From: Planctomycetota bacterium
Lineage (GTDB): Bacteria > Planctomycetota > UBA8108 > JACQVS01
Length of the DNA stretch: 64,000 bases
Reading direction: 5' to 3'
NCBI GenBank assembly: GCA_016209605.1
Contig: JACQVS010000264.1
Span: forward strand, 1 to 64,000
Part shown: positions 16,810 to 40,798 of the stretch, one piece after another
Numbering within the stretch: position 1 is the stretch's first letter
Layout of the letters: every line of letters begins with the position of its first letter
The notes under the pieces: generated by a model
What the model was told of the DNA's origin: nothing
Database searches by the model: none
What the model saw: the letters and a program-made list of their open reading frames with translations, nothing else
Position numbers and translations under genes: made by a program

Positions 16810-17262
16810 TTACGCCGTGCCCTCCGGCGGCGCATGCATCAGCTTCGAGCCGGCAAGGACGGTCGTCGAGTCGTGCGTCGGCGGCGCCGCCTGCGGGCCG
16901 CTCAAGACGGCGACGATCCCGTCGAGGGTGGCGTTCTGGGTGGCGCGGTTGACGATCAGCTTCAGGTAGCGCTTCTGCGGCCGCGTCACCTCGACGAAGA
17001 CCAGCTTGTTGTCCTGGTCGTCCGCCACGGTGACTTTCGAGCCGAGCAGCGAGCCGTAGGCGTCGGCCACGCCATCGTCGCTCGACTGGTGCACCTCGAC
17101 CGAGGTCGCGGCGCCGGCGACGATCGCCCCGAGTGCCGCGATGAAGGTGCAGGAGTCGAAGCCCTTCATGTCCACGCCGGCGCTGGGGGTGATGGTGGTC
17201 ACGCCGGCCGCCACGGCGTTCGAGTGCCGAATCAGTTTCGTGTTTTTTGTGAGATTGTTCAT
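16810..17262 (-). CDS. Putative phage head decoration/stabilisation protein (150 aa)
   Basis: It begins 11 bp after the capsid stop, with AGGAA in between, and is thus coupled to the capsid gene. The product is Ala/Thr/Val-rich, lacks a signal or membrane helix, and looks all-beta, with a central V-E-V-H-Q-S-S-D-D-G segment and a Pro-rich C terminus. Small beta-rich proteins directly after an HK97 major capsid gene are often decoration proteins. The sequence itself gives no named family that I recognise. Confidence 0.6.
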   Translation of the reverse strand: MNNLTKNTKLIRHSNAVAAGVTTITPSAGVDMKGFDSCTFIAALGAIVAGAATSVEVHQSSDDGVADAYGSLLGSKVTVADDQDNKLVFVEVTRPQKRYLKLIVNRATQNATLDGIVAVLSGPQAAPPTHDSTTVLAGSKLMHAPPEGTA

Positions 17263-17272
17263 TGGTTCCTTC

Positions 17273-18595
17273 CTACGTAATCATGATGCCGCTCATGTGG
17301 ACGAAGAAGGCCGGCCGGAGGATGGCCACGTCCAGCCGCGTGTAGGCGACGACCAGCTTCCCGAGTTGCGCCGCGGCGTTGAAGGTCGTCCCGGCGGAAT
17401 CGGTGACGCTACCCTGGTCGAGGATCCGCACGGCGATCTGCGTCCGGACGCCGAGCAGGACCTGAGAGAAGTCGCCGAGGTAGCCGGAGCTCTCGGCGCC
17501 GGCCCCTTCGGTGATCGAGAGCGAGGTCGTCGCGAACTTGCGCAGCCGCGCCACCCATTCGGGCGGGACCAGGGGCTGGTTGCCGGTTTCCTTGAGCTGC
17601 ATGAGCTTCGAGAGGTCGCGCGGGTGCAGGACCAGCGCCAGGCCCTCGATCGCACCGCTGTAGTTCGCGGTCAGAACCTTCTCGACCGCCTGGACGTACT
17701 TCACGAAATCGGCCGGCGTGCCGAAACTCGTGATGGTGTTGATGCCGCTGGTATTCCGGATGCCTTGCTGGGTAGATTCGGAGCCTTGGCCGAAGAGCAC
17801 CGCCTGGTCGATGACCAGGCCCATGCGCTCCCGGATCGCGCTCTCGATGATCGAACCAAGATTCGGCGAGTCTTCGATTAACTCGATTGCAACCGGGATC
17901 GCCACCGCCAGGGTCCGCGGCCGCAGGGTGACCCGCTCGAAGGCCATGTCGCCGACGGGAACGTTCACCCATTCGGACCGCCAACCCGGAGTCGGTTCGC
18001 TCGAGAGGCGGACGAGGTTCGTCTCGCCATCGATCGGGACGGTCGCGGCGCCGGCCGCGACGGCCACGGACGCGCTTCGCGCCAGGTCGATGAACCTCGT
18101 GCTGGCCGCAGGCGATAGGAGGAATCCACCGCTGGAATCAATCCCGCCGAGGAGACCCCGAGACTCGCTGGGATCCAGCTCGTGCATGCGGCCGGTCACG
18201 GCGGCGGCGATCAGCCGGCCGATCGGCGGTTCCTACCCTTCGGGACAGAGCCGCTCGCCGGGAGTGTAAGAACGCAGCTCCCGGCCAGCCAGGTCGCGGT
18301 AGACGGCTCCACCTCCGGGCTTCGGCTTGGGCGTCCCCTCTTCGCCGTCATCGGAAAAAAGCCGCGAGGGGAGCTTCGGCGGCAGGGGCGTCAGCCGCGC
18401 CGCCAGCTCCTCGCCGACCTGGAGGCCTCGTATCTCCCGTGAGAAGCGGTCGTATTCGGCGTTGAGGGAATTCCACTCGGTTTCATCGATCGCCGTCCAG
18501 GGCACTTTCTCGTCCTGGCAGCGCTCGGCCAGCGCTTGGATTTTAATTCCAACCTCGCCGCGCTTTTCGGCGAGTGCTTTAATCGTTGTTGGCAT
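17273..18595 (-). CDS. HK97-type major capsid protein interrupted by an in-frame TAG
   Basis: From the ATG at 18595 (AGGA about 10 nt upstream) one frame runs to 17273 with a single TAG at codon 121 (18233-18235); total 440 sense-length codons. Codons 1-120 encode the coiled-coil delta/scaffold domain (K-A-L-A-E-K-R... E-I-R-G-L-Q) and the linker R-E-L-R-S-Y-T-P-G-E-R. After the TAG comes I-G-R-L-I-A-A-A-V-T-G-R, then G-G-I-D-S-S-G-G-F-L-L-S-P, the classic start of the mature HK97 fold. Both halves are therefore one gene. A CAG-to-TAG change would explain it. A GTG at 18199 could restart translation and give a 308-aa mature-type capsid. The final stop is also TAG, which argues against wholesale amber recoding. 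Confidence 0.8.
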
Positions 18596-18649
18596 GATTG
18601 AATCCTTTGAAATTTCCGATTGTTGAACGGTTCGGAGCCGCGGCGCTGG

Positions 18650-18721
18650 CCGGCTGAAGAGCCGGGGCGCAGCGGCCTCCCGCCGCCGGCGTGTCGCTGA
18701 AAAGCTGGCGCCGGCGGCGGG
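18650..18721 (-). other. Two strong hairpins between the Cys-rich gene and the capsid gene
   Basis: A 13-bp perfect GC-only inverted repeat (18679-18691 with 18709-18721, 17-nt loop) is followed on the minus strand by a 6-bp stem with GAAG loop (18650-18665). Neither has a U-run, so a simple intrinsic terminator is unlikely. They could slow readthrough from early into late genes, protect the capsid mRNA 5' end, or mark a packaging site. Confidence 0.5.
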
Positions 18722-18741
18722 GTCGCTTCGTGCGTCTGATT

Positions 18742-19365
18742 TCAATTTTTCATGGCCAGATCTCTGAGCCGACCGTGGATCGCTTGCTGCTCGCGCAGGC
18801 GGAGGAAGCCGGCCTTGAATTCGTCTCGGATCTGGCTGAGGTTCGTTAGCTTCGTCCCCGCTGGCGCCGCCGGGATCATCCCGGTCGGGACCTGGAGCGG
18901 CCTCATGTAACCCGCCGGTTCGTCGATCAGCAGCCATAGCGCCTCGCCGGCCTTGTCGGCCTTCTTGAAGTTGCTGAGAACCATGCCGAAGGTCTGCTCG
19001 ATCTTCTTCCCGCGCAGCTCGCCGGTCCGCGCGTGGGCCGAGATCAGCGTCAGTGCGACCAGGGCCTCGGCGGTGAGAACCAGATCTCCCGAGTCGGGAT
19101 CGCGTGCCAGCGGTAGGTTGCCGCGCAGGAGCCAGCTCCAGAAGGTCTGCGCCGGCACGCCTTCCTTGACCGCCGGCGGCCCGCCAGCAGGCCGGCCGAG
19201 GCGCCAGGCCGGCAGCTCCTCGGCCTCCCAGGCCGCCGCGCAGGCGGCGCAACGGTCCTTGCCGTCCGGGCAGCGGATCAAGGCCTCGGCGGCGCGGCAG
19301 GCCTGGCAAGGGTGATTTGGACCGGTTTGGACCGGTTGGACCGGTTCATCCATAACTTTTCCCAT
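18742..19365 (-). CDS. Element-encoded Cys-rich hypothetical protein (about 207 aa)
   Basis: The N-terminal third has two C-x-x-C pairs (H-P-C-Q-A-C and C-A-A-C) with extra Cys between, a likely zinc ribbon. The rest is helical, with W-S-W-L-L-R-G-N-L-P-L and a long C-terminal basic helix. It follows the primase gene. It may help replication or regulate the switch to capsid genes; this is inference from position only. The start is uncertain: ATG at 19365 is used, but a further-upstream TTG (19404) and an ATG at 19353 are possible, and none has a clear ribosome site. The 5' end overlaps the GGACCGGTT repeats. Confidence 0.6.
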   Translation of the reverse strand: MGKVMDEPVQPVQTGPNHPCQACRAAEALIRCPDGKDRCAACAAAWEAEELPAWRLGRPAGGPPAVKEGVPAQTFWSWLLRGNLPLARDPDSGDLVLTAEALVALTLISAHARTGELRGKKIEQTFGMVLSNFKKADKAGEALWLLIDEPAGYMRPLQVPTGMIPAAPAGTKLTNLSQIRDEFKAGFLRLREQQAIHGRLRDLAMKN

Positions 19366-19421
19366 GATGCGCGATGATGGAAAGTTTCCGTTTAACCGGT
19401 CCAAGGGGGTCCAACCGGTCC
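19319..19421. repeat. Iteron-like GGACCGGTT repeats (three direct, two inverted)
   Basis: The 9-mer GGACCGGTT occurs at 19319-19327, 19329-19337 and 19338-19346; its complement AACCGGTCC at 19394-19402 and 19413-19421. Each holds the palindrome ACCGGT. The cluster spans the end of the primase gene and the start of the next gene. Dense short repeats beside a primase gene recall replication origin iterons or an operator array. Confidence 0.6.
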
Positions 19422-19422
19422 A

Positions 19423-21051
19423 TTATTGGTCCCTACCGCTTGGATTCTCGACACGAAGGCCGATTCCTCGCCACCATTTGCAGCCGCTGTGCTCCCGTAC
19501 CAGGCCAAGCTCCCCAAGCCGGAGGCCAAAGGCCGTCTGGGTTAAGAACTCCTCACGGTTGGCCTCGCACCATTCGACGTAGGCCTTAAACAGGTCGCCG
19601 GCTCGCGCTTTGACCGTCTGGTCCAAAAGGCACTTTTCCCCGATAAATTGCGCCAGCTTGTCTTGTTCTTCCCGGTATCCGGCGGTTGCCTCGGTCACTG
19701 CTCCCGCCTCGCCAAGGCCTTCCCGTTGCCAAGCCAGGCAGCCGGCGACGGCCCAGGCCAGGATGCCGGGCAGCTCCGCCTGCAGCTTCTCCGCGAGCTT
19801 GTCGTCCCCAGGCAGGAGGTATGGTGGCGACGTCGGCTCCCCCGGCTTCATGAATTTGACGGTGAAGGGTAGTAGCCGGATCCGCCGCCAGATACCGTGG
19901 TCGGTGCCGCGCACCTCCGGCTTGTGGTTCGCCGCCAGCCAGATCATCCACGACCGCTTGAACTCGAAGCTCTCCTGGTAGAGGAACCGTGCGCGAATCC
20001 GATCGCGGGAGGTGATCTGCTTGACGACGCCCTCGTCGAGGCGCGCCCCGGATGGCGGCTCTGATGCCGAGACGAAGCGCGCTCCCCGCAGGGCGGCGAT
20101 GTCGTTGCGGATGTTGTCTCGGCGCCGGGCTTCGAGGAAGGTCGAGAACTCGGACGCCTGGGCGTAGTCGCCGAGAGCGCGGGCCACCGCCTCTATCAAG
20201 GTGGTCTTCCCGTTGGCGCCGACGCCGTGCAGCAGTAAGAAGACCTCCTCGCGTGGGTCGCCGGTGATCGAGGCCCCGACGGCTCTCTGAGTGAATTCGG
20301 CCATCGATTCGTCGCCGGCGAAGATCTCCGTGAGGAAAGTCCGCCACCGTTCACATCCCGCATCGGGCTGATAGTCGGCGCCGGCCATCTTGGTCAGCAG
20401 GTCTTCACTTTTATGTGGCTTAAGTTCACCAGTCCGCAAATCGATGGTTCCATTTGGACAGTTGAGAAGCCAGGGATTGGCGTCCAGTTCTTCCGGAAGC
20501 GCTGGAATACCGGGTCGAGAACCGGCCAGGTCAATCATCGCCTCGAGCCGCTGCAACGATTCGGATCTAACCGCCCAGGTAGCGAGCTTCTCCCGCAATT
20601 CCTTCGTTGTTGCGGTGGAGGCCTCGGCATAAACTCCCGAGGCGGCCATGGTGGCGGAATTTTTAATTTCATCCTTCAAGTCGGGAATCCACCGCGTCCC
20701 ATCGAAGAAAATCCACCGCTTCCACGGCGTGACATAACGCGCCTTGCCGGCGAGGTGCTTAACTAACCGGTCGGCATTTGCTACATCGGTGCACGGATCT
20801 CCTTGCACGTTCAAAAACGCCTGGAGCCGATCGCCTTCACCATCAAGCCAGATTCGCGCGAGGGAGCCGATCTCCGGTGACCACCATCCCGGTATGGTAG
20901 CCTCGGTCTCGGCTTGAAGTCGGGCGACCGCGGCCTCGAGCACTGGCCCAGCCAAGCGGCCACCGGCGCTCCGGCGCACCTCGCGGCAGGCAGCCTCGAG
21001 TGCTTCGAGGCGGGCGGAGGGCTTGAGAGAGGCGAGCATTTTTTCATTCAT
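19423..21051 (-). CDS. D5-like primase/SF3 helicase of phage-plasmid type (542 aa)
   Basis: The C-terminal half is a superfamily 3 helicase: Walker A G-V-G-A-N-G-K-T-T (about residues 270-278), followed by the expected R-G-A-R-F-V-S-A-S-E-P Walker B region, and W-L-A-A-N-H-K-P-E-V-R-G-T-D as the sensor motif C. Before it sits a D5_N domain with N-P-W-L-L-N-C-P-N-G-T-I-D-L-R-T-G, typical of P4-family primases. The first 100 residues lack recognisable primase zinc or TOPRIM motifs, so priming activity is uncertain. The gene overlaps the methyltransferase gene by 4 bp (ATGA), showing translational coupling. It points to autonomous replication of the element. Confidence 0.88.
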   Translation of the reverse strand: MNEKMLASLKPSARLEALEAACREVRRSAGGRLAGPVLEAAVARLQAETEATIPGWWSPEIGSLARIWLDGEGDRLQAFLNVQGDPCTDVANADRLVKHLAGKARYVTPWKRWIFFDGTRWIPDLKDEIKNSATMAASGVYAEASTATTKELREKLATWAVRSESLQRLEAMIDLAGSRPGIPALPEELDANPWLLNCPNGTIDLRTGELKPHKSEDLLTKMAGADYQPDAGCERWRTFLTEIFAGDESMAEFTQRAVGASITGDPREEVFLLLHGVGANGKTTLIEAVARALGDYAQASEFSTFLEARRRDNIRNDIAALRGARFVSASEPPSGARLDEGVVKQITSRDRIRARFLYQESFEFKRSWMIWLAANHKPEVRGTDHGIWRRIRLLPFTVKFMKPGEPTSPPYLLPGDDKLAEKLQAELPGILAWAVAGCLAWQREGLGEAGAVTEATAGYREEQDKLAQFIGEKCLLDQTVKARAGDLFKAYVEWCEANREEFLTQTAFGLRLGELGLVREHSGCKWWRGIGLRVENPSGRDQ

Positions 21052-22676
21052 GGCCTAACCCCTTCGGCGGCCCGGGCGATGCGGTCCAGGTCGGCGACGT
21101 CGAGGGGCGGCGCCTCTTTCCCCCATAGGTCCAAGCCTTCATGCCTCGGCAGGCGGGCCTTGACACTTGCGAGAATCTTAATCAACTCGCCGATAGCGTC
21201 TGAAAATTCTCTTGTGAAGGTGGGGAAATCGGCGAGGTATTTGAAATTTTCTTCGTCATCCAGAAGGTTTGAAAATAATTGTGCTTGCCCCGACAATTTT
21301 CCAGACCATTTATCAATCCACAGTTCAAGCCCTGGCGGCTTTTCTTTTTTCTTTTCGCCTGCCGGTGCCGTTGTGTCGCCCTCGAGTCGGCGCGCCAACT
21401 CGCCGAGGCGTGCCTCCTCGATGATGCGTGCCTCTTCGGCGATGCGCGCCTTGGCGATCTTGAAGTTCTCTTCATCAATCTCGGCGCCGATGGCCCGGCG
21501 GCCCTGGCGCTGCGCCGCGACCATCGTCGTGCCGGATCCGGCGAAGGGATCGACGACCAGGTCGCCGGGATTTGTCGTTAGCCGCTCGACCAGATACTCG
21601 AAGGCCCGTAGGCCTTGCTGCCACGGGTGAAAGCTCTTGTCTGGCGTGTCGTTGCGGATGACTGTCTCGATTGGTCCCCGGCGTTTATATTTGCCTTTGG
21701 CAAAAAAAAGTATTGGCCGATCAAGGACATGAATGTTGTGGCACTGAAGAAATAGATGCGAACCACTGAGAAAAAGGGTCAGGGAGGAGACGAATTTCAG
21801 TTTTTCGGCGAGTCGATTCGCGGCGTCGAGATATGTCAAATGGCCGACATAGGCGATTAGGGGCGCGCCGGGCTTGAGCACTCGCGCTGCAAACTTGCCG
21901 AGGTGCAGGAAGTTTTCGATCTCGGCCGCATGCCACGGGGGGTCAGTGATTATGGCGTCTACGGAATTGTCAGCGATATTTTTCAGCACCTCGCGGAAGT
22001 CGCCGTGCCGGAGATCAATTTCGGCAGGCAGGACGGCGCCCGCGCCGCGCTGGCGATAGGATTCCTGAATGGCTTCGCGCCGTTTGGCGGTTAATTCCTT
22101 TTTGGCTTCAGGGATATCCATCTCCCCAGCCCGCACCTTCTCCGCCAGCTCTGGCGCTTCCGCCTTCAACTTCTTGGCGTCCGAGATGTAGCGCGCCGCG
22201 ATGTGGAACATCTCCGCGGCCTGGTCACGGGACTTACCTTCACTTGTGGTATTTTTACCACCAGTGTTTTTTCCTTTTCCCGGCGCCGTTCCGCCATGTT
22301 GCCGTTGTCTCTCTTTCGCTTCCATTTCCAGCATCGGCAGCGCATCACTGGCGACCATGGCCCGCTGGCTCGGCGTCAGATGGCGGCGATGCAGGTTGAG
22401 CGAGATGACGAAAGCGGTCTCGGATCCCTTGCCATCCCAAGTCCGGTATGCCGGATCGATCCCGAGGATCTCGCACGCCCGCAGCCGGTTCCGGCCGTCA
22501 AGGACTCGGCCATCGGGGTGTACCGTGATCGGTTCCCGCAGGCCGTGCCGCCGGATATCCTCGACCAGAGCCTCAAACTCGGCTCCGGCGAGGAGTGGGA
22601 AAAGATTGGCGATGGGATGGATTTCATTGCCCAGGCGCCCGTTGACAGGATCGACTTTGTTCGGTAAAGTATCCAT
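21048..22676 (-). CDS. ParB-like nuclease domain fused to a DNA methyltransferase (542 aa)
   Basis: Residues about 15-110 are a ParB/Srx-like domain (G-R-V-L-D-G-R-N-R-L-R-A-C, a classic motif) followed by a helix-rich KorB-like linker with T-P-S-Q-R-A-M-V-A. The methyltransferase domain (about 215-420) has the catalytic D-P-P-W (motif IV) before the SAM motif F-A-G-S-G-T-T, the order of beta-class amino-methyltransferases (N4-cytosine or N6-adenine). A Glu/Arg-rich C-terminal region of about 120 aa follows. Such fusions occur in phages and integrative elements and probably methylate element or host DNA against restriction; the target site is unknown. Confidence 0.87.
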   Translation of the reverse strand: MDTLPNKVDPVNGRLGNEIHPIANLFPLLAGAEFEALVEDIRRHGLREPITVHPDGRVLDGRNRLRACEILGIDPAYRTWDGKGSETAFVISLNLHRRHLTPSQRAMVASDALPMLEMEAKERQRQHGGTAPGKGKNTGGKNTTSEGKSRDQAAEMFHIAARYISDAKKLKAEAPELAEKVRAGEMDIPEAKKELTAKRREAIQESYRQRGAGAVLPAEIDLRHGDFREVLKNIADNSVDAIITDPPWHAAEIENFLHLGKFAARVLKPGAPLIAYVGHLTYLDAANRLAEKLKFVSSLTLFLSGSHLFLQCHNIHVLDRPILFFAKGKYKRRGPIETVIRNDTPDKSFHPWQQGLRAFEYLVERLTTNPGDLVVDPFAGSGTTMVAAQRQGRRAIGAEIDEENFKIAKARIAEEARIIEEARLGELARRLEGDTTAPAGEKKKEKPPGLELWIDKWSGKLSGQAQLFSNLLDDEENFKYLADFPTFTREFSDAIGELIKILASVKARLPRHEGLDLWGKEAPPLDVADLDRIARAAEGVRP

Positions 22677-22749
22677 GAAATTTCTCTTCCGGCCGCGGCG
22701 CTCCTTCTCCTCAAGAAAACCAGGCGCTGGCGGCGCGCTTCTTTCCTAG

Positions 22750-23031
22750 TTATTTTTTCTTTGCCCATCGTCCCGGCTTGCCGCCATACTTCGTAGGATC
22801 ACGGGTTGCAACGGGTCCTCCCTTAACGGCGCCAGCGAGGTATTTTTCAAAGTCTGACCGCAACACCACCACGGCTCCGCCCCGGCCGATCTGGCGTCCG
22901 ACAAGTTCTCCAGAATTGATTTTGTTTCGCCAGAATTGGGGATGCCTTTTTGATCAGGCGGCCAGCTCGGGGATCGTGTAGGCTGGCTCAAAGCCCTCAA
23001 GCGTTGAGTCGTGCGAAAGAATTTTGCTCAT
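22750..23031 (-). pseudogene. Excisionase/HTH_17-like DNA-binding protein with in-frame TGA
   Basis: An ATG at 23031 has a perfect GGAGG five bases upstream. The frame reads 25 codons ending Y-T-I-P-E-L-A-A, then TGA (22954-22956), then S-K-R-H-P-Q-F-W-R-N-K-I-N-S-G-E-L and onward to a TAA at 22750. With the TGA read as an amino acid this is a normal MerR/Xis-like HTH_17 domain plus a basic tail (93 codons). The stop falls between helices 1 and 2. CGA-to-TGA or TGG-to-TGA would explain it. No bacterial SECIS-like hairpin follows. If dead, the element may be unable to excise. Its position beside the integrase supports an excisionase or regulator role. Confidence 0.6.
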
Positions 23032-23055
23032 GTAAACCTCCAAAAGTTTGAATTT

Positions 23056-23065
23056 TGAATATTCA
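23056..23065. promoter_or_regulatory. Palindrome upstream of the HTH gene, possible operator
   Basis: TGAATATTCA is a perfect 10-bp palindrome 25 bp before the HTH gene start, inside an AT-rich pocket of a GC-rich element, flanked by CCAAAA and TTTTGG arms. An operator for the element regulator is a fair guess. Confidence 0.35.
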
Positions 23066-23118
23066 GTTTTTGGAAGTTTACAGGGAAGGCGACGGCTCAG
23101 TGGCGGGCAGTGAGCTAA

Positions 23119-23697
23119 CTAATTTTTCGGATTTTTGGTGCGGCGCTTGAGGGTTGAGAACGAAGCCGCGCACTCTTTCGCAAGCTGCTGGCAAGCCCAG
23201 TGGTAAGAAACGCCTGGATTCTTCATCTTCTCATCAATTTTCTTTTGCAGCTCCGACCATCTGGCGAGTTTGTCTTCTTTATTTCCATGAACCACTTCAT
23301 GGCCGCGTTTTGCCCCGCCCACCACCTTTTGGCCGCGCGCGGCTTCCGGTTCAAACGGCCGGATAGCTGCGCGCTCGCTCAGGCGGCCGAGGTTAAACCA
23401 CCAGTAGCCGGTGTTGGCGCCGCACCTGATCCTCTCGCAGGCGAGGAGCGCGCGATAGGCATCGCGGCGCTCGCTCTCGATTACCTTCGGCCGCGGCGGC
23501 TGCGGATACTTCTGGTTGATCTTAGTCAGGCGCTCACGGATCGCCGCGTCCATATCGGCCAGGAATTTGTCGTCTTGCGGCAGCTCCTGGTCCGCGATCT
23601 CGTCCAGGAGCGCCTCGACGTCCTTGGTGTTCTTCAAATTGGCGGTCCTGATGGTCCGTTTGTAGATCCCGGTATCTTCCACGCGCTCCTCGATCAT
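23119..23697 (-). CDS. Element-encoded hypothetical protein (192 aa)
   Basis: The gene starts 2 bp after the integrase stop and so is cotranscribed. The product is soluble, charged and helical, with I-R-E-R-L-T-K-I-N-Q-K-Y-P and a central Y-W-W-F-N-L-G-R-L-S-E-R; a basic C-terminal segment (F-S-T-L-K-R-R-T-K-N) could bind DNA. I do not recognise a family. Confidence 0.6.
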   Translation of the reverse strand: MIEERVEDTGIYKRTIRTANLKNTKDVEALLDEIADQELPQDDKFLADMDAAIRERLTKINQKYPQPPRPKVIESERRDAYRALLACERIRCGANTGYWWFNLGRLSERAAIRPFEPEAARGQKVVGGAKRGHEVVHGNKEDKLARWSELQKKIDEKMKNPGVSYHWACQQLAKECAASFSTLKRRTKNPKN

Positions 23698-23699
23698 GT

Positions 23700-24857
23700 T
23701 CAGGCCTCGGCTTTCGATTGCGAGATGGCGTTGAAGCCGGAGAGCCTGGCGATGGCCTCGCGCTTCTCGTGCTCGCCGACCCGGCGGTAGAACTTGAGCG
23801 TGGTCTTCACGTCCCGGTGGCCGACGAGGGCGGCGGTCACCTCGAGGTCGACGCCGGCCTGCCGGCAGCGGGTGATGAAGCTGGCGCGCAGGTCGTGGAA
23901 GCGCAGCGGCCGGATCTTGGCGCGTTTCACGGCCCGCTTGAAGGCCTTCCGCACGTCGCCGCGCTCCGGCAAATCGAACACCTTGAAGCTTCGCGCCTCC
24001 GCCTTCAACGTCTTGAGAACCGCGATGGCTTTCTCGCTCAGTGGAACGCTGATTCCTTCACGCGCCTTCATCTTTGATGGCGCTATGCGGACCATGCGCC
24101 CCTGGAAATCGATGTCTGCCCATTCCAATTGGTCGAGTGTTCCGTAACGCAGGCCGGTTTCGATGGCCGCCTCAACCAGCGGCCGTAGCCAGCGCGGCGG
24201 CTGGCAGGTCTGTTGCCACTCGCTGGTTTTGTCTGTGACCCTTCCGCCGGCGCGGCCGCCTTGGTTGCGGATGGCGATCACGTTGACGGTGTACCCCTCC
24301 GAGCAGGCGCGGAGGAGCTTCTCTTCCTCTTCGGGAACCAAGACGCGGATCTCCCGTTTCTCCTCCGGATAGCGCGGAATCGTGGAAAGAGGATCGCCCT
24401 CGCACCAGCCGCGTTTCCGGCACCACGTGAAAAACTGCTTCATCTGGGAACGTTCATGGTTCAGGGTTTTCCCGCTGACCACAACACCTCGCGATTGGAA
24501 ATATCCCTCAACCAGGTTGTTGGTGACGCCGCGAACAACGGCGCGCTCCGGGAAGTGCTTCAGCCAGTGGCCACAGTAGGCCTTGTAAGTTTCATGGCCG
24601 CGGGGGGTCAATACTGGCTGTTTAAAATCGAGCCAGGCCGCGACAGCCTTGGAGAAGAGAACGTCTTTCTGGTCCGATTTGCCGGCGGCGTCGCGCAGCT
24701 CCCATTGACGCTTCTCCTCCAGCGCCGCCTTGACGCTCGTCCTGCCGGTCGATAGCCAAACTTGTTTTTTTGTGAGCGTGTCATAAGCGCGGCAGTAGAA
24801 GCACTTGCTCAGCTCATCACGAACCTTGATCCTCTTGGGATTTCCGTATCGCATCAT
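23700..24857 (-). CDS. int: Tyrosine recombinase (phage-type integrase)
   Basis: Site-specific recombinase that inserts the element at tRNA-fMet. The ATG at 24857 (AAAGGCGAG upstream) was chosen over the ORF limit at 24917, giving 385 aa. Catalytic residues are all visible: Arg in E-T-G-L-R-Y-G-T-L, H-D-L-R-A-S-F (His and second Arg), L-V-G-H-R-D (His) and the nucleophile Tyr in T-T-L-K-F-Y. An N-terminal SAM-like core-binding domain (about 55-170) precedes them. It lies 214 bp from attR, the normal place for an integrase in a tRNA-targeting element, and appears intact. Confidence 0.95.
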   Translation of the reverse strand: MMRYGNPKRIKVRDELSKCFYCRAYDTLTKKQVWLSTGRTSVKAALEEKRQWELRDAAGKSDQKDVLFSKAVAAWLDFKQPVLTPRGHETYKAYCGHWLKHFPERAVVRGVTNNLVEGYFQSRGVVVSGKTLNHERSQMKQFFTWCRKRGWCEGDPLSTIPRYPEEKREIRVLVPEEEEKLLRACSEGYTVNVIAIRNQGGRAGGRVTDKTSEWQQTCQPPRWLRPLVEAAIETGLRYGTLDQLEWADIDFQGRMVRIAPSKMKAREGISVPLSEKAIAVLKTLKAEARSFKVFDLPERGDVRKAFKRAVKRAKIRPLRFHDLRASFITRCRQAGVDLEVTAALVGHRDVKTTLKFYRRVGEHEKREAIARLSGFNAISQSKAEA

Positions 24858-25070
24858 CTGTCTCGCCTTTCCCCGATGGGGGTCCTGGCTCCAGGCCGGA
24901 CATGAACCGGTTACCACTTATCGCCGGTCCCGACAAATCTGATGTCCTACCTGATGACCTAGGAATTGGTTTATTTAGGTTTATGTTAGCTTAGGCGAGT
25001 TTGGCCATAAGTTCAAGAGAAATATGCCGATGCGTTAAAATTAAAGAACTTGCGAAAACCGCCGTTCTCC

Positions 25071-27529: not shown

Positions 27530-27910
27530 GTGGCCGGTAAACGTTTCATCATGAACGTAGGTCGCACGACCAAGCAAGGGAGACAGATCAATGTCGGCAA
27601 GGACAACGCCGAATACGAGGCCCTGGTCACCACACTGATAATGCATCCCGAGGACATGAAAGAGATTGGAGTTTCCTCGGGAGGAGCCGTCCTGGTTCGT
27701 TCTGAGAACGGAGAGGGCACGTTTCTATGCAAGGAACATGGAGAAAAAGACGGGAAAGTGCCCCGAGGGATGGTTTTCATCCCCTATGGCCCCCCAACCT
27801 GCCGGCTCATGGGCCAGAGTACCGATGGGACCGGGATGCCCACTTCCAAGGGTTGGGAGGTCGAGATCGAACCCGTGGCTGGCGCAGCGCCAACCGGCGA
27901 AAAGTCTTGA
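27530..27910 (+). CDS. fwdD: Formylmethanofuran dehydrogenase subunit D
   Basis: FwdD is the small molybdopterin-dinucleotide-binding subunit that completes the bis-pterin Mo/W site of FwdB. The GTG start follows GGAGGAAGAG. At 126 aa it is a full-length subunit: N-V-G-R-T-T-K-Q-G at the start, L-I-M-H-P-E-D-M-K-E-I-G-V in the middle, and R-G-M-V-F-I-P-Y-G-P followed by D-G-T-G-M-P at the end, all diagnostic of the family. In the Fhc hydrolase complex of aerobic methylotrophs this subunit is absent, so its presence argues for a redox-active enzyme. It heads the cluster fwdD-B-A-C. Confidence 0.9.
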   Translation: MAGKRFIMNVGRTTKQGRQINVGKDNAEYEALVTTLIMHPEDMKEIGVSSGGAVLVRSENGEGTFLCKEHGEKDGKVPRGMVFIPYGPPTCRLMGQSTDGTGMPTSKGWEVEIEPVAGAAPTGEKS

Positions 27911-28257
27911 GAAAGATCGTGGAGCTGGTTCGTCGTGTTCGGAAGGCAGTGGTTTTCAGAAAAGACAGGGCTTTTTAGAAATGGTAGGCCAACGCAATGG
28001 GTCTAGCAAAATCTACAAGAATTAATAGAGATGCCAGAGGGCCTGAGACGGCGCAGTTTTCAGAGAATCCCGATCCGGCGGCGGTCGAGGATTTGAAGGC
28101 ATGGGAGCTGATCGACCCCGAGATCGGCCGGTACATGCCACGGCGGATCCGGGGTAGCTGTCGCGGGCGGGCCCTTGGTTGAAGTTTCATCATCAGGCCC
28201 GGTCCGGGCGCAAATTCCCCCCGAGGGGACAGCGATACCGAATAAGCAGCGAAAATA
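27911..28257. other. 347-bp gap between fwdD and fwdB
   Basis: It contains one 61-codon frame (27997-28182, ATG start) with a plausible middle (A-A-V-E-D-L-K-A-W-E-L-I-D-P-E-I-G-R-Y) but no clear ribosome site and no family I recognise. It could be a small real gene or a remnant. The rest looks non-coding, unusual inside a tight functional cluster. Confidence 0.35.
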
Positions 28258-29589
28258 ATGACCCATACCGTTGTAAAAAACGCCACGTGTACCTTCTGCG
28301 GCTGCGTGTGTGACGACATGGAGCTGCACGCCGAAGGCGATCGCATCGTCAAGACCAAGCTGGCTTGCGGTCTCGGCGAAGCGTGGTTCAAAAACCATAC
28401 CGCAGAACACCTCTATCCCGACGCGCTGATCGATGGCCAACCCTCCTCGGTCGAAGAAGCGGTGCAGGCCGCAGCCGATTATCTCTACGAGGCGGACATG
28501 CCTCTGGTATATGGGCTCAGCAATATTACCTGCGAGGCGCAACGAGCCGCAGTGGCTCTGGCCGAACGGATCGGAGGGGTGGTTGACAGCCACACCTCGT
28601 TGTGACACGGTCCAACCGAAATAGCCGCCCAGTTGGGTGGTAAAGTCACGTGCACGCTAGGCGAGGTCATGAACCGAGCTGACTTCATCATCTACTGGGG
28701 AGGCAATCCGGCCGACTGCCATCCGCGGCACTTCACCAAATACACCCTGACCCCGAAAGGCAAGCACGTGCCCATGGGCCGCAAGGGCCGAACGATGGTC
28801 CTGGTCGACGTCCGGGAGACTCCCAGCGTAAGGGCTGCGGATATCTTCCTCCAGGTAAGGCCTGGTAAAGACTTCGAGGTGATCACCACGCTGCGTGCTC
28901 TCGTCAAGAATCAACCCGTCGACCAGGCCCGCGTTGCAGAAACCGGACTGACTCTCGCGCAGCTCCAGGACCTCGTCGGCCGGATGAAAAACGCCCGCTT
29001 CGGGGTGATCTTTTTCGGGATGGGCCTGTCGATGACGCGCGGAAAACACATGAATTCGGCTGCAGTCCTGGCGTTGGTCGCGGAGTTGAACGCATTTACC
29101 AAATTCGTATGCATGCCGATGCGGGGACATGGCAACGTTACCGGGGCGGACGTGGTCATGCGTTGGACGACCGGCTTTCCGTTCGGGGTAAACTTGTGCC
29201 GCGGTTACCCTCGGTTCAATCCGGGCGAATTTTCAACGGTCGACCTGCTGGTCCGAGGAGACAACGACGCCGCGCTCATCCTTGGCGCCGATCCGGGCGC
29301 TACCATGCCGCAGCCGGCCATCGACCACCTGGCGAGGATACCGACCATCGTGCTGGATCCGAAAGTAACGCGCACCAGCCGCTTGGCCCGCGTCCACATC
29401 ACGACGGCCGCCATGGGCATCAGCGCGCCTGGGACCGTCTATCGCATGGATGAGATTCCACTTCCCCTCAGGCCGATCCTCCAGTCGCCCTATCCCACCG
29501 ACGAAGTGGTGATCCGCCGCATCCACGAACAGGTCAAGGCGAAGCCAGCATGGTTGCCTGCTTCTTTCAAGAAGGTACCCTGCGCATGA
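28258..29589 (+). CDS. fwdB: Formylmethanofuran dehydrogenase subunit B, selenocysteine-containing (443 aa)
   Basis: FwdB carries the Mo/W-bis-pterin active site that reduces CO2 (or oxidises formate to CO2) next to FwdA. One frame runs from 28258 to the TGA at 29587, crossing a UGA at codon 116 (28603-28605). The UGA is followed by H-G-P; in archaeal FwdB the metal ligand is Cys or Sec in this (C/U)-H-G-P motif near residue 118, and Sec versions are known in methanogens. The 4Fe-4S cysteines are intact: C11-x2-C14-x3-C18-x18-C37. The length equals that of archaeal FwdB, and the second part carries the family motif W-G-G-N-P-A-D-x-H-P-R-H. A SECIS-like hairpin lies just downstream of the UGA. 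Annotation software would split this into 115-aa and about 318-aa pieces. Confidence 0.88.
28603..28641 (+). promoter_or_regulatory. UGA plus candidate bacterial SECIS element of fwdB
   Basis: After the UGA (28603-28605) a 7-bp stem, 28624-28630 with 28635-28641 (five G:C and two G:U pairs), closes the tetraloop AGUU (28631-28634). The loop begins 25 nt after the UGA and has G at its second position, followed by U. These values fall within the usual bacterial SECIS rules (loop 16-37 nt from UGA, G among the first two loop bases). It would be the SelB binding site. Confidence 0.75.
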
Positions 29590-29614: not shown

Positions 29615-31246
29615 ATGCTCCGAATAACGGGGGGGAGAGTTTATGACCCGGCCAACGGCATCCACGGTGAAGTCAAGGATGTCTGCATCTCGGATGGCCG
29701 CATCGTCGCCGAGGTCGAGGGAACGGGCGTCAGGACCATCGATGCTTCCGGGATGGTCGTCTTTCCCGGAGGGGTCGACGTCCACACGCACGTCGCCGGC
29801 GCAGCGCTCAACTTCGCCAGGGCGATGACTCCCGAAAATCAACGGGAGGCCGTCAAGTTCATTCACTCGCCGGAGCTTCGCGCCGGCATCGGCGGGATCA
29901 CCCCTACCACTTTTGCCACCGGGTACCTGTACGCCGGGCTGGGGTACACGACGGTCAACGAGGCCGCCGTGCCGATCCTTTCGGCCCGGCACACGCACGA
30001 AGAGCTCCGCGACACGCCCATTGTCGACAAGTCCTGCTGCGTGCTGATGGCCAACAACGAGCTGGTGTTGGACCTGCTCGAGGAAGGCGAAACCGAGCGT
30101 GCCAAGCAGGTTGTGGCCTGGCTGATCTGGGCGGCGAAAGGCTACGGAGTGAAGGCGGTCAATCCCGGCGGCGTCGCCGCCTGGAAGTGGGGAAAGGATG
30201 CCAAGATCCTTTCCGAGCCGGTCGAAGGCTACAGCAAGGTGACGCCCGCCAAAATCATCGCGAGCCTGGCCGCGATCGTCAATGATTTGCAATTGCCGCA
30301 CCCGCTTCACATTCACTGCAACAACCTGGGGGCGCCGGGCAACATCAGCACCACGCTCGAAACCATGAAGCTGCTCGAGGGATACCGGGCGCACATGGCG
30401 CACCTGCAATTCCATGCCTACGGCGGCGATGGCTGGAACTCGCTGCGCTCCGAAGCGGCCACGCTTGCCGAGTACTTCAACGCGCATCCCAACCTCACCG
30501 CGGATGCGGGCGCCATCCTGTTCGGCAACTCGGTGACCATCACCGCCGATGGTCCGTGGCAGCACCTGCTGTATCAACTCACTGGACACAAGTGGGGGAA
30601 CCTGGATGTCGAGAACGAGACCGGGTGCGGGATCGTTCCCTACGTGTACAAGGGAAGCAATCTGGTCAACGCCGTGCAGTGGGCCGTGGGATTGGAATTG
30701 CTGCTGCTCATCAACGACCCTTGGCGGATCTTCCTGACCACCGATCATCCCAATGGCGCCTGCTTCTGGCGTTATCCGGAAATCATTCACCTGTTGATGG
30801 ATGTCGACTTTCGCCGCGAGCGTGTGAGAAAACTACCGGCCAAAGCGCTGAAGCGAATTGTTCTCGGCGATCTCGATCGGGAGTACACGTTGTCCGAAAT
30901 CGCCGTCATCACCTCGGCGGGTCCAGCGCGGGCCCTCGGGTTGTCCCGGAAAGGTCATCTCGGACCGGGCGCGGATGCAGACGTGGCCATCTACAACGAA
31001 AATCCCGACCGCGAGCTCATGTTCCGGTATCCTCGCTACGTCCTCAAGGGCGGACAGGTCGTCGTCGAGGAAGGTGCCATCCGCAAGGTGGTCGATGGAC
31101 GTGAGTTCATCGTCCATCCTTCCTTCGATGAGAACATCGAGGAGTATCTGCGGCCGTTGTTCGAACAATACTACACGATGTCTTTCGACAATTACCCGGT
31201 GGAGATGCATCGGGTCGAAGGAGCGGACATCCGTGAATGCGGTTGA
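29615..31246 (+). CDS. fwdA: Formylmethanofuran dehydrogenase subunit A (amidohydrolase)
   Basis: FwdA is the metal-dependent amidohydrolase that condenses formate with methanofuran, or hydrolyses formylmethanofuran. Ligand residues of the dinuclear zinc site are all visible in the 543-aa product: H57-x-H59 in D-V-H-T-H, the carboxylated Lys180 in G-V-K-A-V-N-P-G-G, H232/H234 in L-H-I-H-C-N-N and Asp377 in T-T-D-H-P-N-G. It begins 25 bp after fwdB. No strong ribosome site precedes the ATG. Archaeal FwdA proteins are of similar length. FwdA, B, C and D together form the heterotetrameric core; extra ferredoxin subunits (F, G) are not seen. Confidence 0.94.
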   Translation: MLRITGGRVYDPANGIHGEVKDVCISDGRIVAEVEGTGVRTIDASGMVVFPGGVDVHTHVAGAALNFARAMTPENQREAVKFIHSPELRAGIGGITPTTFATGYLYAGLGYTTVNEAAVPILSARHTHEELRDTPIVDKSCCVLMANNELVLDLLEEGETERAKQVVAWLIWAAKGYGVKAVNPGGVAAWKWGKDAKILSEPVEGYSKVTPAKIIASLAAIVNDLQLPHPLHIHCNNLGAPGNISTTLETMKLLEGYRAHMAHLQFHAYGGDGWNSLRSEAATLAEYFNAHPNLTADAGAILFGNSVTITADGPWQHLLYQLTGHKWGNLDVENETGCGIVPYVYKGSNLVNAVQWAVGLELLLLINDPWRIFLTTDHPNGACFWRYPEIIHLLMDVDFRRERVRKLPAKALKRIVLGDLDREYTLSEIAVITSAGPARALGLSRKGHLGPGADADVAIYNENPDRELMFRYPRYVLKGGQVVVEEGAIRKVVDGREFIVHPSFDENIEEYLRPLFEQYYTMSFDNYPVEMHRVEGADIRECG

Positions 31247-31288: not shown

Positions 31289-32104
31289 ATGATCACACTG
31301 ACCCTCAAGGAGCAGCCCAGAGTTCCGCTCGAAGCCGAGGCCATCTCGCCCGATGTGATGGCGAAACTAAGGCATGACGAGATCCGCGCCGTGCCGATGT
31401 TCCTGGGCAAACGGCAGCGCCGCCTCGACGATTTCTTTGAGGTCGAGGGAGAGGCCAGCGAAGATCTGGAGATCCGCGGTGACGTTGGCAAGGTCAAATG
31501 GATCGGCCGGGGCATGACGCGCGGCCGCATCAGAGTCGCCGGCAACGCCGGAATGCACCTGGGAGCCTACATGAAGGGCGGGACCATCGACGTTTCCGGC
31601 AACGCTGCGGACTGGGTTGGCGGCGAGATGTCGGGTGGGCTCATCCGAATCGGTGGCAACGCGGGCGGACAGGTCGGAGCCGCCTACCGGGGCAGTCTCA
31701 CCGGGATGCAGGGCGGGACCATTCTGATCGAGGGCTCGGCTGGTCTGGAAGTCGGCATGCGGATGAAAAGAGGGATCATCGCGGTCAAGGGTTCGGTCAG
31801 GGACTTCCCGGGCCTCCAGATGAAGGGCGGCACCATCATCCTGGGCGGTGCCGAGCTCCGGACGGGAGCTTGGATGATCCGGGGCACGATCCTCTCCTTG
31901 AGACCGATCCCGCTCTTGCCGACGTTCGCGTATAACTGCAACTACAATCCCAGCTTCTTGCGCCTGTACGCCAAGCATCTACAAATCCAGGGATTCTCCA
32001 TCCCCCATGAAGAGGGCGACGGGGCCTATCTACTTTACAGCGGTGACGCCGCGGTTTCCCAAAAGGGGGAGATTCTCATCTGGCAGCCCCGCGCCTCCAG
32101 CTAG
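31289..32104 (+). CDS. fwdC: Formylmethanofuran dehydrogenase subunit C
   Basis: FwdC is a right-handed beta-helix subunit related to the glutamate synthase C-terminal domain; it links FwdA and FwdB. The 271-aa product shows the expected run of G-x-x-x-G repeats (G-N-A-G-M-H-L-G, G-N-A-A-D-W-V-G, G-N-A-G-G-Q-V-G, G-S-A-G-L-E-V-G, G-S-V-R-D-F-P-G) with G-G-T-I between them. The C terminus is about 70 aa longer than the helix and ends W-Q-P. It is the last gene of the fwd set; what follows is gene debris. Confidence 0.92.
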   Translation: MITLTLKEQPRVPLEAEAISPDVMAKLRHDEIRAVPMFLGKRQRRLDDFFEVEGEASEDLEIRGDVGKVKWIGRGMTRGRIRVAGNAGMHLGAYMKGGTIDVSGNAADWVGGEMSGGLIRIGGNAGGQVGAAYRGSLTGMQGGTILIEGSAGLEVGMRMKRGIIAVKGSVRDFPGLQMKGGTIILGGAELRTGAWMIRGTILSLRPIPLLPTFAYNCNYNPSFLRLYAKHLQIQGFSIPHEEGDGAYLLYSGDAAVSQKGEILIWQPRASS

Positions 32105-37916: not shown

Positions 37917-38831
37917 TCACCGGAGCACCTCGTGGAGATGGAACTTGAACTTCCCCAGGTGGCCGCCGTAGTTGCCGGCGGAGATGGCGGCGATGCCCTC
38001 GTCGCCATCGGGGCTCGCGCAGGCGGCGAGGATCCCCTGCTTCATCGCTTCGCGGATGGCGGCCTCCCCGATGCCGTTCACGATGATCTCGTAGACGGCG
38101 TTGGCCTCGGGGTGGAGCTGCGTGGCCGCCCGGCTCCGCAAGGTCGGGCAGAAAGCCTCGTTGGTGGAGGCCTTGAGGGCGCGGTAGCGCGAGCCCACCT
38201 TGCTGCCGCTCCGCGCCAGGCCGCCCGGGAAGGGGGTGATCACGTCCGGGAGCGGCGCTATGGCCGCCACGGCGCGCTCGGCGGCGGCCAGGGCCGCCTC
38301 CAGCGTCCGCCCCTCGATCAGGAAGTTCCCGCCAGCGATCCCCTTGGCGGCGCGCGCGGCCTCCTCGACCACGAACTCCCCGTCCATCACCGGAATGCGC
38401 CAGAAGCGCCGTCCGCCGATCACCTTGCTCTTCTGGAAGCCATCGCCGAAGTAGCGGAGCTGCTTGCCGAGGGGGAAGGGCTCCGCGTCCGGGGGAGGAG
38501 GCTCGAGGCCGTCGTAGACCGCCGTCGTCGCGCAGGTGAGGACGCACTGGCCGACGCGGTTGAGCACCGCCCTGGCGAGCGCTTCGGTCGAGAAGCCGAA
38601 GAAGAGCACGGCCGCTCCCGGCCGGCCATCCGGGGTGCTCCCGGCCGGGAGCACCCGCTCGAGGCCGGCCTCGGCGTCGCAGGCGATGACCGAGGAGCCG
38701 TAACCGGTGGCCTCCACGGCGGCGGTCCTTGCCCACGCCTCGCTCGCCGCGGTGATGATGAGGCGCGAGTAGCGCATGCGGAAGGCCTCGGCGTAGGCGT
38801 CCTCGATCACGGTCTTCCCGATCAACATCAT
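37917..38831 (-). CDS. ftr: Formylmethanofuran:tetrahydromethanopterin formyltransferase
   Basis: Ftr (FhcD in bacteria) moves the formyl group between methanofuran and N5 of H4MPT. The 304-aa product matches the family along its length: I-E-D-A-Y-A-E-A-F at the start, [17 protein letters not shown], the loop [20 protein letters not shown], and the end [11 protein letters not shown]. The ATG at 38831 overlaps the TGA of the preceding 63-aa gene (ATGA) just after GGGGGG, showing translational coupling. With Fae, MtdB and Fwd in the window, only the cyclohydrolase Mch is missing from the formaldehyde-to-CO2 route. Confidence 0.95.
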
Positions 38832-39019
38832 CTCCCCCCTTTCTGAAAATCGGCGCTCGCGGGTAGGGGCTGGATATTGAGCCAATCGGCCCCCCGATCG
38901 CAGGCGTTCGCCGCTGGATCGATGCGGCCGCCTTCGTGGCGGAGCTCGAGGTCGTCGCACAGGCAGCCACAGCGCGCGCAGACGAACGGTGGAGCCGGGG
39001 GGCTCTCAGTCATGTTCAA
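38828..39019 (-). CDS. 63-aa iron-sulfur mini-protein resembling the FwdB N terminus
   Basis: The product contains C14-x2-C17-G-C-x-C21-D-D-L-E-L and C40, the same spacing (C-x2-C-x3-C-x18-C) and D-D-x-E-L as the 4Fe-4S end of FwdB at 28258. It stops there. It is a deliberate-looking gene: its start overlaps the ATP-grasp gene by 14 bp and its stop overlaps the ftr start by 4 bp. It may be a separate 4Fe-4S or zinc module for the C1 complex, the stump of an fhcB whose rest was lost, or part of a split FhcB completed elsewhere. Confidence 0.7.
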
Positions 39020-40300: not shown

Positions 40301-40798
40301 ATGTCGTTGCTTATCGGAGAAGCTCTGGTTGGAGAGGGGAATGAAATCGCCCACATCGATTTGTTGATCGGCGACAAGGATGGGCCGGTCGGCCACGCCT
40401 TCGCGGCGGCCCTGGCGGACCAGAAGGCGGGCCACTCCAACCTGCTCGCGGTGCTGGAGCCCAACCTCCTGGCCAAGCCGGCCACCGTCCTGATCACCAA
40501 GGTCACCATCAAGGGGGCCAAGCAGGCCGTGCAGATGTTCGGGCCGGCGCAGTACGCCGTCGCCAAGGCGGTCGCCGATTCGGTCGCGGAAGGGGTGATT
40601 CCAAAGGACCAGGCCGACAAGCTGGTTTGCATCTGCGGCGTCTTCATCCACTGGGAAGCCAAGGATGATGCCAAGATCCGCAAGTACAACTACGAGGCGA
40701 CCAAGCTGGCCATTGCCCGCGCCATGAAGGGGGAGCCGCGGATCGAGGAAATCGCCGCCAAGAAGGACAAGGCCAAGCACCCCTTCATGGGCGCCTGA
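40301..40798 (+). CDS. fae: Formaldehyde-activating enzyme
   Basis: Fae condenses formaldehyde with H4MPT to methylene-H4MPT, both detoxifying formaldehyde and feeding its oxidation. The ATG at 40301 (AAGGAG 9 nt upstream) gives 165 aa, the normal size; the ORF is open further upstream but not needed. Family motifs: G-E-A-L-V-G-E-G-N-E-I-A-H-I-D-L at the N terminus (the His being the proposed catalytic residue), G-H-A-F, K-A-G-H-S-N-L-L-A-V-L-E-P-N-L, and F-G-P-A-Q-Y-A-V-A. The mtdB gene follows by 39 bp. Its presence strongly suggests that the host meets formaldehyde. Confidence 0.96.
   Translation: MSLLIGEALVGEGNEIAHIDLLIGDKDGPVGHAFAAALADQKAGHSNLLAVLEPNLLAKPATVLITKVTIKGAKQAVQMFGPAQYAVAKAVADSVAEGVIPKDQADKLVCICGVFIHWEAKDDAKIRKYNYEATKLAIARAMKGEPRIEEIAAKKDKAKHPFMGA

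Follow-up and report, generated by a model that had tools for sequence, protein, structure and literature searches.

Organization of the fwd locus

The window, by which is meant the whole 64,000-nucleotide stretch of contig JACQVS010000264.1 that was analysed, belongs to a 6.2-Mb metagenome-assembled genome (MAG) that is 80% complete and, to judge by FwdB, has mostly Planctomycetota as its relatives. It contains genes for the subunits of a formylmethanofuran dehydrogenase in the order fwdD-fwdB-fwdA-fwdC, with a small open reading frame (ORF) containing a UGA codon between fwdD and fwdB, and with ftr and fae genes located 6-9 kb from the operon (Table 1). When compared with the NCBIfam FwdD model the fwdD product scored 78.4 bits, which is under the exception cut-off for that model. 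The gene is found 5' of fwdB in nearly all loci encoding a selenocysteine (Sec) form of FwdB. Planctomycetes have been said to be without fwdD (PMC5020050), contrary to its presence here in both Sec and Cys operons of planctomycetes. No genes for the electron-transfer proteins FwdF or FwdG were found beside the operon, a statement that extends to the operon genes only and not to the genome.

Two further features of the window were observed. A 61-amino acid ORF at 38828-39013 on the reverse strand lies between an ATP-grasp gene and ftr, overlaps both, and resembles only the 4Fe-4S N-terminus of FwdB (TIGR03129, 27.7 bits). As ORFs of this type stand alone only in the window genome, with other matches located in long frames or in FwdB N-termini, it may represent a remnant or a solo Fe-S domain. 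A possible integrated mobile element spans positions 17141-24917, where primase/helicase-like, ParB/methyltransferase-like and integrase-like ORFs were recognized by eye from their translations.

Table 1. Features of the fwd locus and neighbouring C1 genes (positions in the window)
Feature	Position	Strand	Evidence
fwdD, molybdopterin-dinucleotide-binding subunit	27530..27910	+	Pfam Molydop_binding 40.5 bits
Putative small selenoprotein gene, 82 aa, predicted Sec at residue 62	27997..28245	+	invariant TGA, flanking conservation, mixed stops, hairpin covariation
UGA codon of small protein, predicted to be read as Sec	28180..28182	+	TGA in 63/63 loci
SECIS-like hairpin of small gene, GCCCG-GUC-CGGGC, loop 19 nt past UGA	28197..28209	+	
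fwdB, formylmethanofuran dehydrogenase subunit B, predicted selenoprotein	28258..29589	+	TIGR03129 486.7 bits; full-length alignment to solved FwdB chains
UGA codon 116 of fwdB, predicted to be read as Sec; metal ligand position	28603..28605	+	
Predicted SECIS hairpin of fwdB, 7 bp, AGUU loop, GCCGCCC-AGUU-GGGUGGU	28624..28641	+	
fwdA, amidohydrolase subunit	29615..31246	+	TIGR03121 707.9 bits
fwdC	31289..32104	+	TIGR03122 261.7 bits
ftr/fhcD, formylmethanofuran:H4MPT formyltransferase	37917..38831	-	NF002554 417 bits, TIGR03119 399 bits
fae, formaldehyde-activating enzyme	40301..40786	+	TIGR03126 264 bits

A UGA codon at the metal ligand position of FwdB

Translation of the fwdB frame produced a 443-residue sequence whose only UGA, at codon 116, precedes H-G-P. 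All four Cys residues of the N-terminal 4Fe-4S site (C11, C14, C18 and C37) are present, and the description given in the initial annotation is thereby reproduced. The TIGR03129 profile matched this protein over model positions 1-421 of 421 and well above the cut-off of 327.8 bits. Standard ORF calling breaks the gene into two frames at 28258-28605 and 28633-29589, the very split that had been foreseen. In known FwdB proteins the residue at the ligand position is Cys or Sec. When aligned with solved FwdB chains, codon 116 was opposite a non-standard residue (X) in 9sfi_Q and a Cys in 8rja_B, and so matches the Cys/Sec ligand of these structures.

Conservation of this codon was assessed in a set of 81 sequences comprising the window FwdB and its best relatives. 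The codon is TGA in all 65 members of a clade consisting of the window and 64 further loci, and TGC or TGT in the 16 more distant homologues. Neither a frameshift nor another residue at codon 116, either of which the initial annotation had named as grounds for rejecting a Sec residue in FwdB, was encountered among the close relatives. In a maximum-likelihood tree the Sec sequences form one group with modest support (83/34, and 78% of bootstrap trees), with the Cys sequences as its sister group. The Cys-type FwdB proteins of Planctomycetota (L086-L101) are approximately 60% identical to the Sec form and likewise have fwdD upstream, but they carry a Cys ligand, a SECIS-like hairpin is absent in 15 of 16, and they are without the small UGA-containing gene. 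Two tandem FwdB paralogues carry Thr at the ligand position; a paralogue of this kind is located between the small gene and the Sec-FwdB gene at L053:4547-5842 and L054:4619-5872.

The hairpin described in the initial annotation was found with its loop 25 nt past the UGA (z -2.3 against shuffles). The bacterial SECIS model used here specifies a loop of 3-9 nt, a stem of 4-16 bp, a spacing of 16-37 nt, a G at one of the two leading positions of the loop and a minimum free energy of -7.5 kcal/mol or lower (PMC13188914), all of which are satisfied by the window hairpin with its energy of -11.7 kcal/mol. The model is satisfied at 60 of the 65 Sec codons as against 1/16 Cys codons, and by 102 of 1300 random codons (about 8%) of the same genes. 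The seven pairs are preserved in 97% of cells, and the two codons that surround the loop, CAG and TTG, are identical in all 65 sequences, with variable codons on either side. Since the hairpin is so conserved its covariation is weak when taken alone; a C-G to U-A double change in the stem of L047 is accompanied by a Gly-to-Ser change. When the region and the entire window were scanned against Rfam, no SECIS model was matched and one tRNA only was returned. The fit to the bacterial model and the conservation in relatives bear out the expectation of a SECIS element at this UGA.

The genome encodes tRNA-Sec (72 bits), SelA, SelB and SelD, such that the complete set of selA, selB, selC and selD that had been left to be sought is present, with tRNA-Sec near selA and selD, and selB elsewhere in the genome. 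The tRNA-Sec model also produced matches in all 14 control genomes, and weaker extra matches besides the best one. The selD gene of the window genome, which adjoins selA and tRNA-Sec, itself has one in-frame TGA (L017, G000 contig C21). Among 244 sampled phylum genomes, selA is present in all four with a TGA-containing fwdB. The UGA kept at the ligand position, the conserved hairpin and the Sec machinery together identify the gene as encoding a Sec-FwdB within an fwdD-fwdB-fwdA-fwdC operon, the insertion of Sec in vivo being inferred.

A second UGA-containing gene in the operon

The small ORF starting at 27997, which the initial annotation overlooked, lies directly upstream of fwdB and runs for 61 codons before its UGA. 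In 63 of the 65 Sec loci fwdB is preceded by a relative of this gene, the other two (L025 and L067) being on contigs that start too close to fwdB. The corresponding figure for the Cys-FwdB loci is 0/16. The encoded proteins are roughly 60-90 residues in length, Arg/Gly-rich, and share the motif GR[FY]MPRRxRGSxxGRxLG-U-xF. Sequence N-terminal to the UGA is better conserved than that following it. Before the UGA, identities at the three codon positions are 0.94, 0.90 and 0.58 (figures that include the UGA codon itself), so that third positions are free and this part of the gene is conserved as protein. The second codon past the UGA is Phe in 63/63 sequences, with both TTC and TTT used, followed by mostly hydrophobic residues and Pro. 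An AlphaFold model (pLDDT 63, pTM 0.27) contained one short beta-hairpin at residues 36-48, predicted with low confidence.

A hairpin with the loop, loop G, stem and spacing of the SECIS model is located past the UGA in all 63 small genes, and the energy cut-off is met in 50 of these; the window hairpin, at -7.0 kcal/mol, falls narrowly short. Two registers occur, offset by one codon. One stem pair of the short form is U-A in 13 sequences, C-G in 12 and U-G in 4, whilst the long form has double changes at four pairs. Pairing amounts to 92-97%, double changes occupy 12 and 19 cells in the two forms, and none of 500 shuffles equalled the observed percent paired or covariation score in either form, sequence kinship not having been removed. 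Pairing fell to about half or less when the partner strand was displaced by 1 to 3 columns. A second, small selenoprotein is thus apparently encoded in the same operon, as judged from sequence features without protein-level or selenium evidence, and Sec insertion in vivo is again an inference.

The distribution of the small protein was assessed by a profile search of the 244 phylum genomes and 170 genomes of the G239 family. Matches were found in 11 of the 244, of which four were strong (E below 1e-18) and coincided exactly with the four genomes carrying TGA-FwdB. The other seven (E about 1e-3) were weak and partial, all but one lacked a TGA, and they were judged to be chance, leaving no convincing match in the remaining 240 phylum genomes. 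In the G239 family the gene was found in 32/170 genomes, with TGA in all 32, and in 29/29 TGA-FwdB genomes among the matches listed. Three other genomes of this family carry it: in one the FwdB match is weaker and its position is not among the matches listed, and two are fragmented assemblies with no FwdB match at the threshold used. The remaining FwdB genomes of the family, about 126, are without the small gene. Lack of a Cys homologue is unusual for a selenoprotein, and no Cys form of the small protein was detected in the 244 phylum genomes or in the 170 genomes of this one family.

No NCBIfam or PHROG match was obtained for the small protein, and comparison with Pfam produced a single match at chance level, in one of 44 members. 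A PDB profile search returned only a ribosomal match, rejected as chance level. The motif is absent from the 119 prokaryotic selenoprotein families inventoried in 2026 (Table 1 of PMC13188914). Small selenoproteins of that inventory (UXX-star, KCU-star and TsoA/B/C) are alike in their uncertain function and short Sec motif, but they share no motif with the present family and none has LG-U-xF. Six MAGs labelled Acidobacteria (L023, L028, L032, L045, L049 and L081) carry both Sec-FwdB and the small selenoprotein gene, and their FwdB sequences occupy two separate places in the FwdB tree; these carriers reflect either cross-phylum transfer or mis-binning. Sec-FwdB and the small gene also occur together at L079 in Planctomycetes bacterium K23_9, the genome of which (CP036526) is complete.

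Proposed roles and alternative explanations

In the mechanism proposed here, SelB and Sec-tRNA would decode the fwdB UGA, aided by the hairpin just 3' of it, and the resulting Sec would serve as a ligand of Mo or W, the metal itself being inferred. The enzyme would interconvert CO2 and formyl-methanofuran as in methanogens, with FwdB as a CO2/formate oxidoreductase at the Sec-bound metal and FwdA as the amidohydrolase half acting on the formyl-methanofuran amide. The small protein, with its putative Sec borne on an Arg/Gly-rich tail, may be a dedicated partner of Sec-FwdB, either as a small subunit or as a maturation factor, which in the latter case would present its selenol on a flexible arm. 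To a Sec-FwdB operon, a second UGA gene with its own SECIS-like hairpin and this proposed partner role, taken as one explanation, we assign a probability of roughly 0.92. The more specific proposal, that the small proteins constitute an undescribed selenoprotein family without known Cys forms and an obligate partner of Sec-FwdB (subunit or maturation factor) in Planctomycetota and some Acidobacteriota, is one towards which we incline without regarding it as settled.

The small gene could instead be a selenium-sensing leader in which reading of the UGA sets fwdB expression and the protein has no function. This possibility retains some weight, given the position before fwdB, the separate SECIS-like hairpin and the strict linkage to Sec-FwdB. 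Against it, at least 11 residues are invariant, the majority in the 18 codons that lead up to the UGA, and together with the Phe that follows they argue for selection on the protein. The distance from the stop of the small gene to fwdB is also not constant, as it ranges from an overlap to over 200 nt. For the same reason, coupling of fwdB translation to the small gene by readthrough was ruled out. Strict linkage to Sec-FwdB and sequence constraint favour a role for the protein over a leader, both being untested predictions.

With ftr and fae near the operon, Fwd, Ftr and Fae would probably oxidize formaldehyde-derived, H4MPT-bound C1 units, and on account of this proximity oxidation of such units to CO2 is considered more likely than CO2 fixation, although direction and enzyme activity are both inferred. 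The proximity of Ftr and Fae, seen too in bacterial formaldehyde oxidation, would also suit an Fhc-like formyltransferase/hydrolase complex with an inactive FwdB. We consider this improbable as against an active Sec-FwdB, since the ligand, the HGP motif and all 4Fe-4S Cys residues are retained and FwdD is present, whereas the inactive-looking forms are divergent paralogues in which Gly, Ser or Thr takes the place of the ligand.

It is slightly less probable still that the small ORF ends at its UGA and that the hairpin is no SECIS but an attenuator or a translational-coupling element for fwdB. The small-gene UGA is TGA in 63/63 loci, whereas only 105 of 212 fwdD, fwdB, fwdA and fwdC genes in these loci terminate with TGA. 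The location of the hairpin upstream of fwdB and the better conservation N-terminal to the UGA would be in keeping with such an element, but the codons beyond the UGA are conserved as protein, as seen in the invariant Phe encoded by either codon, and the terminal stops of the small gene are mixed (TGA 27, TAA 21, TAG 15). The loop, spacing and stem agree with the bacterial SECIS model, and the variable distance to fwdB is equally at odds with such an element. Finally, whilst errors are possible in a lone MAG contig, a sequencing error at the fwdB UGA or a pseudogene is already refuted for practical purposes by the presence of TGA at the same codon in 64 independent loci with the frame otherwise intact.

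Relation to known selenoproteins and significance

It was already known that selenium occurs in the methanogen enzyme that fixes CO2, and a Sec-containing FwdB was reportedly described from Methanopyrus kandleri by Vorholt in 1997. The M. kandleri protein, which has an entry in Table 1 of PMC13188914, resembles the window FwdB in having Sec at the active-site ligand (UHxP motif). The two differ in that archaeal SECIS elements are mostly outside the coding region, whereas that of the window is of the bacterial, in-gene type, and in that the window operon is without FwdF/FwdG genes.

The suggestion in the initial annotation that a Sec-FwdB was undescribed in this lineage did not stand. According to the main text of Kim et al. 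2016 (PMC4807772), fmdB is a selenoprotein gene in the planctomycete P2 (Rhodopirellula) and on a fosmid of a Lake Washington bacterium, the gene order is fmdD-fmdB-fmdA-fmdC, and other planctomycetes have Gly homologues. Gene, Sec and gene order are the same as in the window, whilst P2 is a different and more distant planctomycete than the window organism. Because of this report the window Sec-FwdB is not new but adds one more example to a group already described. The main text of the same paper makes no mention of a small selenoprotein between fmdD and fmdB; its table S9 may list one. Save for a possible listing in that supplementary table, the small selenoprotein is apparently undescribed.

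A bacterial Sec version of the CO2-fixing methanogen enzyme has thus been reported once, in passing. Annotation passes over the small gene owing to its shortness and its early UGA, and searches for Cys/Sec pairs, a main method of selenoprotein discovery (PMC13188914), would miss it for want of a known Cys form. The gene is therefore representative of selenoproteins that current methods overlook. As a constant companion of Sec-FwdB the small selenoprotein offers a direct handle on why selenium is used in this enzyme and on what else the enzyme needs. If it is indeed an obligate partner, one bacterial operon would make two selenoproteins that act together.
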